Positions 5,221 through 6,416 of a DNA stretch of 36,791 nt are shown in pieces. Below the pieces are notes generated by a model. The model was given only the letters and a program-made list of their open reading frames with translations, ran no database searches and was not told where the DNA came from. The translations under genes were made by a program, and so were the position numbers. Source of the DNA: Lysobacteraceae bacterium NML95-0200 (GTDB taxonomy: Bacteria; Pseudomonadota; Gammaproteobacteria; Xanthomonadales; Xanthomonadaceae); contig NWQQ01000011.1 of the NCBI GenBank assembly GCA_002798255.1, forward strand, positions 1 through 36,791, given 5' to 3'. Every line of letters starts with the position of its first letter. The stretch's first letter is position 1.

Positions 5221-5598
5221 TTATTTGACGCGGCAGGTGGTTTCCAGCAAGCGGCGACTGCTGCGCCAGTCACTGGCCGGATAAGTGAAATGGGCAGTAT
5301 CGCCTTGCTCGTGCCAGCGCAGATTGCCCAAATCATTCACGTACTGGCTGCCCGAGGCAGCGGGCGTGCTATTGGCAATGACGACAAAAATATCCTTACC
5401 CGTGCTGAAGTTGATGCTGATTTGCTCCGGACTTTTGTACTTGACGCTCACCCGGTAGCCGTTATCGCAATGAAAGGCGCGGTAATCGCCATCCAGCTGA
5501 TAGCTATCGCCCCCCGGAAAGCTGACCCCGTCCAGGCTGACACAGGCGCTTGCCAACAGGGCTGCAAGCAGCGGCGCCATCAGTTTCAGATTGTTCAT
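5221..5598 (-). CDS. MliC-like lipoprotein (putative C-type lysozyme inhibitor)
   Basis: A 125-residue lipoprotein. The signal peptide MNNLKLMAPLLAALLASAC ends in a lipobox (LASAC), with Cys about residue 19 as the lipidation site. The mature part follows the MliC layout: FHCDNGYRVSVKY, a central SGSQYVNDLG strand (the family's SGxxY) and a final Cys in ETTCRVK able to pair with the Cys of FHCDNG. MliC proteins block host or environmental C-type lysozyme at the cell surface. The key SGSQY loop is close to, but not identical with, the usual SGARY, so inhibition is inferred. The first ATG at 5598 is preceded by GAGAGATGG. Confidence 0.7.
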   Translation of the reverse strand: MNNLKLMAPLLAALLASACVSLDGVSFPGGDSYQLDGDYRAFHCDNGYRVSVKYKSPEQISINFSTGKDIFVVIANSTPAASGSQYVNDLGNLRWHEQGDTAHFTYPASDWRSSRRLLETTCRVK

Positions 5599-5649
5599 CC
5601 ACCATCTCTCAAATTTCGGCAAGAAACCATAATTCTAGCCATGCGCACT

Positions 5650-5922
5650 TTAGAGCCTGTTCAAGGTCTCTTCTCGGTACCCGCAAGTGCAGCCCATGTG
5701 CAGGGGCAAGACGCACGCCGCGGCCAAGACTGGCTGTCTTGGCAAGGTGTGCAACAAAGCCCCTGTGCATGGGGTGCCTTGCCCAATGGGTTGCACCGCA
5801 AAGGCGGCATCTGCGCTGTTGCAAATGCTCGCCGGGCCACCAGCCCGCCTGCGCTTTGCGCCTTGCATCTGCCGCCTTTGCGAAGCAACGGATGCCAAGA
5901 AGAGACCTTGAACAGGCTCTTA
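5650..5922. mobile_element. MITE-like element with terminal inverted repeats and two large hairpins
   Basis: A 267-bp non-coding unit (5653-5919). Its ends are 25-bp inverted repeats differing at one base (5653-5677 and 5895-5919; the outer part reads GAGCCTGTTCAAGGTCTC). It is flanked on both sides by TTA (5650-5652 and 5920-5922), which looks like a target duplication. Inside are two strong hairpins. The first has arms 5693-5707 and 5759-5773 around a perfect inner stem at 5724-5742 (CCAAGAC-TGGCT-GTCTTGG). The second has arms 5798-5814 and 5865-5881 (core GCAAAGGCGG / CCGCCTTTGC). Open frames on both strands are by-products of the palindromes. A TTA duplication suggests mobilisation by an IS5-group transposase. 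It lies in the divergent gap between the MliC-like and VOC genes. Confidence 0.75.
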
Positions 5923-5940
5923 GCGGATGCCAACCCGCAG

Positions 5941-5957
5941 CTGCCAGAAACTGTCAG
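5941..5957 (+). promoter_or_regulatory. CTGCCAG-AAA-CTGTCAG repeat upstream of VOC gene
   Basis: The same pattern as at 1716-1732 (CTGnCAG, AAA, CTGnCAG, 10-bp period), 36 bp before the VOC start and 19 bp after the end of the MITE-like element. TATGCT at 5962-5967 could serve as -10. Its distance from the repeat differs from the GST copy, so if it is an operator the exact mode of control may differ. Confidence 0.45.
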
Positions 5958-5993
5958 CTGCTATGCTGGACACATGTTTTTAAGGAAAACCCC

Positions 5994-6416
5994 ATGAGCC
6001 GACCCAACCCCAGCATCAGCCTGCTCTCGCACGTCTCGCTCGGCACCAACCGCTTTGCCGAGGCAGTGTCGTTTTACGATGCCGTACTGGCCACGCTCGG
6101 CATTGGCCGGGTGATGGATGTCAGCGAGGTATTCCCCGCCATCGCCTATGGCCGCATCCATCCCGAGTTCTGGATACAGCAGCCGCACGACGGCCAGCCA
6201 GCGCAGGTCGCCAACGGCGTGCACATCGCCTTCATGGCCGCCAACCCGCAACAAGTGCATGCCTTCTATGAGGCGGCTCTGGCCGCTGGCGGCACGGGCG
6301 ATGGCGAACCCGGCCCACGCCCGCACTATGGCGAGCAGTATTACGGCTGCTTCGTGCGCGACCTGGACGGCCACAAAATCGAAGCCATGGCCTGGCTGGA
6401 ACAAACGCCTGCATGA
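5994..6416 (+). CDS. VOC family (glyoxalase/bleomycin-resistance-like) protein
   Basis: A 140-residue vicinal-oxygen-chelate protein. Two beta-alpha-beta-beta-beta modules are visible: SLLSHVSLGTNRFAEAVSFYD at the start and VHIAFMAANPQQVHAFYEAAL in the second half, ending YYGCFVRDLDGHKIEAM. Candidate metal ligands are His15 and the Glu of KIEAM. The ATG at 5994 has AAGGAAAA at about 8 nt. Its stop overlaps the OmdA gene (ATGA). The family covers dioxygenases, isomerases and resistance proteins; no specific activity can be named. It is probably driven from the promoter with the CTGnCAG repeat. Confidence 0.85.
   Translation: MSRPNPSISLLSHVSLGTNRFAEAVSFYDAVLATLGIGRVMDVSEVFPAIAYGRIHPEFWIQQPHDGQPAQVANGVHIAFMAANPQQVHAFYEAALAAGGTGDGEPGPRPHYGEQYYGCFVRDLDGHKIEAMAWLEQTPA

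Follow-up and report, generated by a model that had tools for sequence, protein, structure and literature searches.

The window analysed here, a 36,791-nucleotide stretch of DNA from Lysobacteraceae bacterium NML95-0200, contains at positions 5653–5919 a 267-bp element that is almost certainly a MITE. What is new, and well supported, is its membership in a large structured family that extends across two families of the Lysobacterales, the window genome's own (f1) and another (f12); on the evidence of sequence comparison and predicted fold, this order-level assignment of the window copy is very likely to be correct. Taking all the evidence together, we lean towards an IS5-mobilised MITE whose core perhaps works as a two-way transcript-end structure.

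Architecture, copies and locus

How is the element built? It is flanked by TTA at 5650–5652 and again at 5920–5922, two identical triplets that follow the TNA rule seen in the genus. A 32-nt inverted repeat (5652–5683 and 5889–5920) is 91% complementary, and over their outermost 22 bases the ends agree completely (22/22). The left end and the left arm of an outer stem (GAGCCTGTTCAAGGTCTCTTCT..., 5653–5681, plus strand), like the right arm and right end (5891–5919, minus strand), are supported by this repeat, by the fold and by the covariation of the two arms across 27 elements. The initial annotation described the hairpins as nested. This is incorrect: H1 and H2 stand side by side within the stem formed by the ends, separated by a 9-bp mini-hairpin. 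H1 occupies 5682–5781 (plus strand), with limits derived from a minus-strand model match at 5682–5790, and folds better on the plus strand (–72.8 kcal/mol versus –62.3 on the minus). The mini-hairpin, CCCAATGGG, lies at 5782–5790 and supplies the first nine positions of the match of model R1 at 5782–5890. That match covers H2 (5790–5890, minus strand), which runs from GTTGCACC... to ...CAACG, has its arms at 5790–5814 and 5865–5889, and folds better on the minus strand (–61.0 kcal/mol versus –57.9 on the plus). Folded as RNA, the whole element reaches –180.2 kcal/mol against –108.5 ± 5.4 in 200 dinucleotide shuffles, a z of –13.2 on the plus strand with no shuffle as low, and likewise –13.2 on the minus strand. 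The element holds no transposase gene; the overlapping open reading frames of at least 80 aa were judged mechanical.

Is it mobile? Its own genome gave 29 match rows, some of which are the two ends of one copy. Five copies, the window copy and four others, cover 257–267 of the 267 bases, five shorter ones of 160–192 bp retain both ends, and there are further fragments. A 25-base end pattern with at most three mismatches occurs 14 + 11 times there, its reversed control not at all. Among the 60 relatives searched there was a match in seven (own genome counted), substantial in G001, G006 and G010; three relatives match over 30–50 bases only. An identical TNA triplet stands on both sides of 12 of the 16 two-ended copies scored in the genus (11 of 15 in a first set, plus the G010 copy), which corresponds to 11 of 14 sites because two pairs of copies are the same site in two genomes. 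Equal TNA is lacking at C1 and C17 of G000, at the C17 site in G006 and at C27 of G001; C27 would fit the rule if an alternative right end were chosen.

We then have the sites themselves. When the joined flanks of eight copies were compared with four genomes, five of the eight sites proved to be spanned by element-free sequence in one or more other genomes. Four of these five were aligned: two are clean in G001, with a single TTA for the C23 copy and a single TAA for the C10 copy, and the other two show small differences at the junction. Of the three sites for which no crossing was shown, one is that of the C16 copy, which lies within a different abundant repeat, and the other two yielded no match across the junction. 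The element is thus neither single-copy nor devoid of empty sites, and its earlier description as a structured mobile repeat with inverted ends and a TTA duplication is borne out by the copies, the duplications, the match of the ends and the fold.

The exact 22-base end pattern was found in 11 stretches across 84,980 genomes: nine in the G001 MAG, one in NML07-0707 and one, with no facing partner, in a Deltaproteobacteria MAG. Since ten of the 11 fall in the first two, the exact window end is nearly private to the genus in that collection. Three individual copies deserve mention. The C16 copy (G000:C16:27521–27977; L002, L136) is embedded in another repeat, about 137 bp long (query 586–722), with matches at many places in G000, G001, G006 and G010. 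The C23 copy (G000:C23:36576–36842; L004) appears to interrupt a frame that runs unbroken in G001. In G072 (L164, 1501–1551) a 51-bp perfect palindrome, a minimal derivative, comprises little beyond the two ends.

What of the locus? As the initial annotation proposed, the element lies in a divergent intergenic region, between an MliC-like lipoprotein gene (minus strand) and a glyoxalase-fold (VOC) gene (plus strand). Recruitment of the window copy to control these two genes would suit that position, as it would the presence of the element at the same place in G001, which shares the left flank and the element at 96% as far as window position 5933. Against this, the gene arrangement is not conserved, since the homology of G001 stops at 5933 and that of G006 and G010 starts only at the VOC start (query 773, window 5993). 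Simple scans of 5500–6100 returned no sigma-70-like promoter and no U-tailed terminator; the negative promoter scan likewise speaks against recruitment, which we consider very unlikely, and leaves the promoter role once suggested for the element unsupported. Nor is the locus special, because the family occupies all kinds of gene arrangement. The window locus was occupied, or gave no unoccupied site, in the relatives examined (G001, G006 and G010).

Two short sequences close to the element were noted. At 5937–5961 a short inverted repeat, GCAGCTG / CAGCTGC, can be seen by eye and is probably the candidate operator of the initial annotation. Beside the orthologous element of G001 (L030, L070; G001:C40:48274–48298) there is an extra end-like sequence, GAGCCTGCTCAAGCTCTTTTCTTGG. 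A flip of the element between G000 and G001 was considered and rejected; both copies have the same direction, the loci being given in contig orientation.

The probable IS5-family partner

Which enzyme might move the element? Pfam DDE_Tnp_1 gave 11 match rows in its own genome, which carries one 848-bp IS and two deleted ones with ends GAGCCTGTTCAAAATC and unequal flanks. An 847-bp IS in G001 is flanked by TTA on either side; its ends are GAGCCTGTTCAAAATC / GAGCCTGTTCATAATC, and it shares about 13–14 end bases with the element. The end of a remnant in the same genome, TAA followed by GAGCCTGCTCAAGGTCTC, is 17/18 identical to the window end. The IS of G179 begins GAGCCTGTTCAAAGTCTC, 17/18 identical to the window end and 18/18 to the ends of f12 copies. 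NCBIfam IS5_3 matches both open reading frames of these elements as two halves, which lie in different frames and span profile positions 1–71 and 84–258; the C-terminal halves score above the cut-off and the N-terminal halves, at 92–93 bits, below it. Two-ORF elements of the IS5_3 type may belong to the IS427-like subgroup. They resemble the window element in their ends (GAGCCTGTTC...), in a TNA-type duplication (one copy) and in occupying the same genomes; they differ from it in being about 850 bp long with a transposase, whereas it has two hairpins and none.

We conclude that the element is a MITE because IS5-family elements with similar ends exist in the genus, one of them with a TTA duplication; the earlier guess of an IS5-group partner accordingly holds. 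That the element is moved in trans by an IS5-family enzyme is, from these likenesses of sequence, probable. Two observations count against such mobilisation: G179 has the IS but no two-hairpin family match among the three candidates scored, and the IS copies of the window genome share only about 12–14 end bases with the element and show no exact duplication. In G179, a carrier of 1.83 kb was considered as an autonomous element and rejected; it is made up of an IS fragment, a foreign 302-aa frame and an intact-looking IS. It occurs as two near-identical units (L243, 424–2253; L244, 403–2233) in which the second IS copy has the inverted direction.

How does the element compare with known repeats? 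REP/BIME, ERIC and Correia elements are structured intergenic repeats too, with different sizes and ends. Prokaryotic MITEs, according to a review, are short, have inverted ends and duplications, are expected to give transcripts that fold, and are moved in trans (PMC10969869). The element shares their short length, inverted ends and duplications; unlike the typical AT-rich MITE of that text it is GC-rich, and unlike MITEs generally it retains its fold from genus to genus and in two families, although stem sequences and ends vary. According to another paper, REPINs are palindromic mobile units, mostly extragenic, with paired stem changes (PMC3116915), and in each of these respects the element is like them. 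Could it then be REPIN-like and moved by a REP-associated tyrosine transposase? It is structured, intergenic and rich in paired double changes, as REPINs are described to be (PMC3116915). But REPINs have no duplication-generating DDE enzyme, and the absence of a target duplication that marks them is not what we find: in the genus, TNA is duplicated exactly and empty sites are clean, which fits a DDE enzyme, and the ends match those of IS5-family elements. With its 266 bp, two separate hairpins, TNA duplication and IS5-type ends, the element is hardly credible as a REPIN.

A family with a persistent fold

How far does the family extend? Of 398 genomes in the order, eight carry an 18-base end pattern, seven being f12 genomes; with one mismatch the pattern occurs in 47 of 233 f12 genomes. 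Facing pairs of ends in f12 repeat a distance of 265–266 bp and fold alike. A search with a single f12 element (E up to 0.001) matched 115 of 230 f12 genomes (18 of 26 genera) and 73 of 297 f1 genomes (27 of 54 genera), some of the f1 matches being short. This core query was run on f12 and f1; the other families of the order were covered by the window query and the end pattern only. Plasmids gave no match to the window or f12 query, and phages none to the f12 query. Members share a common fold, namely outer stem, H1, mini-hairpin CCCNNNGGG and H2, and are mostly 265–267 bp long; the f12 lengths derive partly from extrapolation to the ends of the query (20 core-only matches), while the end-pair distances are free of this.

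The window copy is tied to the family through H2. By BLAST its best match among f1 relatives was E 0.007 only, to one of ten. A recognition model was built from 43 H2 domains, of which f12 supplied 35, other f1 genera eight and the own genus none. The best match of this model in the whole window is 5782–5890, at 46 bits and E about 1.5e-8 (E-values are rough); elsewhere in the window it reaches no more than 18.6 bits, E 0.03. It is because a model without own-genus members recognises the window copy that we place it in the family. The alignment behind the model, A3, admitted only domains with CCCNNNGGG and a CAACG-like close. This left 77 of 85 candidates; 47 were kept as diverse, and four of the 47 were dropped for wrong trimming. 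The conservation of CCCNNNGGG and CAACG in A3 is thus by selection of the input, and the claim of conservation rests on the unfiltered alignments. Rfam gave no match in the window and, on ten loci at E up to 1, seven matches, all to microRNA families below gathering. We found no named family for the element in Rfam or the reachable literature; the initial annotation had not recognised one either.

Is the fold itself conserved? In a set of 27 elements (21 f12, six own genus) 96.6% of 1587 cells are paired, and 40 of 60 pairs show double changes. The covariation check on the stems is positive: 240 cells carry double changes, where shuffles give 65 ± 7 and slid structures no more than 46. The two counted pairs of the mini-hairpin are kept in 27/27 and 26/27 elements (one gap), and in 79 and 79 of 80 f12 elements. 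H1 of f12 contains four mismatched GA/GA internal loops, kept in 65, 66, 65 and 56 of 70 parsed elements; the four are consecutive. GA/GA internal loops form stable non-standard pairs.

The ends behave differently from the core. The same core carries ends such as GAGCCTGTTC, GGGCCTGTTCGCAC or GAGCCAGTCCTCAT, f1 members have other ends still, and similar ends can be seen by eye on other palindromic interiors (L168, L175, L179, L260, L273). Yet within a copy the ends agree. Comparing 25 end positions in 77 f12 elements gives 1.45 differences between the ends of a single copy and 8.34 between ends of different copies (0 of 2000 permutations came near); in 13 copies of the genus the corresponding values are 1.15 and 2.38 of 22 (1 of 2000 permutations as low). 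Might arm complementarity arise mainly from template switching, that is, quasipalindrome correction, with no selection on the fold? The strong agreement of the ends within each copy and the many paired double changes are what such copying would produce, but it should erase the GA/GA loops of H1, and these are kept; we regard it as improbable. That H1 is an inverted duplicate of H2 was also considered for the genus and found weakly supported: the minus-strand model match over H1 has 33.5 bits, and in seven copies H1 and inverted H2 are 19–61% identical (z 1.3–4.3). One f12 copy (L313) matches the H2 model in the same minus-strand way, at 29.1 bits.

Strand polarity and transcript ends

Which strand of each hairpin is the more stable? 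With RNA parameters H1 favours the plus strand in 71 of 72 f12 elements, 7 of 10 from other f1 genera and 10 of 11 from the own genus, and H2 the minus strand in 71 of 72, 10 of 10 and 11 of 11. DNA parameters give 71, 7 and 11 for H1 and 70, 9 and 10 for H2 (f12, f1 and own genus); none of these counts are independent, because the copies share descent. Changes to GU versus AC, counted on a tree that ignores recombination, number 45.8/13.0 in H1, 17.4/51.4 in H2 and 27.6/27.6 in the outer stem. An RNA role of the whole molecule, sought as a GU excess, was rejected: over Watson–Crick-majority pairs GU is 113 and AC 121, which argues against one RNA strand, and splitting by hairpin gave the opposite preferences just described. 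On the inward strand of H1, A is commoner than T, so a pure C-to-T strand bias is not favoured there as the cause of the polarity; for H2 it is possible.

Going inward from either end, one thus reads the strand on which the hairpin there folds better. We infer that the RNA entering from each flank matters. For the RNA or insulating role raised in the initial annotation, the strand-polarised hairpins are the one, indirect, line of support. Alternatively, the fold may act in DNA, a cruciform or single-strand hairpin joining the ends and aiding transposase or replication, with RNA irrelevant. The outer stem is without wobble preference, the ends agree far better within a copy than between copies, and DNA parameters yield the same polarity, all as this would have it. 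A cruciform, however, treats the strands alike, yet H1 and H2 favour opposite ones. We rate action in DNA as possible but doubtful, and give a tentative preference to the two-way transcript-end role, for which the polarity of the hairpin sequences argues.

How would such an element operate? An IS5-family transposase would move it in trans. RNA arriving from the left flank would fold H1 first, and RNA from the right flank H2 first. The core would be kept as a two-way transcript-end or read-through-damping structure, and with such damping an insertion, which often falls at a stop codon, would do next to no harm.

Where do the elements lie? In f12, 62 elements comprise 38 in tandem, 13 in convergent and 11 in divergent gene pairs, with one more unclassed. 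Facing 3' ends of genes are within 10 bp of the element in 32 of 64 cases, 19 of them touching; for facing 5' ends the figures are 12 of 60 and none, with genes called by a simple caller that drops open reading frames reaching more than 30 bp into the element. The proximity of 3' ends may need no selection, because TNA targets include stop codons. Equal flanking 3-mers occur in only 21 of 80 f12 copies (19 are TNA), so that these copies would be old, rearranged or using other targets; some copies in one f12 genus look by eye like TA duplications. Two results count against a terminator role: convergent sites are not in excess, and no U-tract terminator was found at the window copy.

What would this mean for the family? 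It may form, though we put this forward as no better than a speculative picture, an order-wide mobile class with a persisting two-hairpin core, exchangeable transposase ends and one hairpin for each side, tuned to fold in the RNA that comes from there, landing at stop codons. If this is true, the family is a mobile module for transcript ends in both directions that makes use of any IS5-type enzyme available. MITEs in bacteria are generally recognised by their ends; in this family the ends and stem letters vary and the fold persists, in two bacterial families. Should the polarity prove functional, the heavy structure of a MITE would have a testable explanation, the management of incoming transcripts. 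The family also provides natural covariation and polarity data with which to ask whether palindromes are shaped by RNA selection, by DNA extrusion or by arm-to-arm copying.
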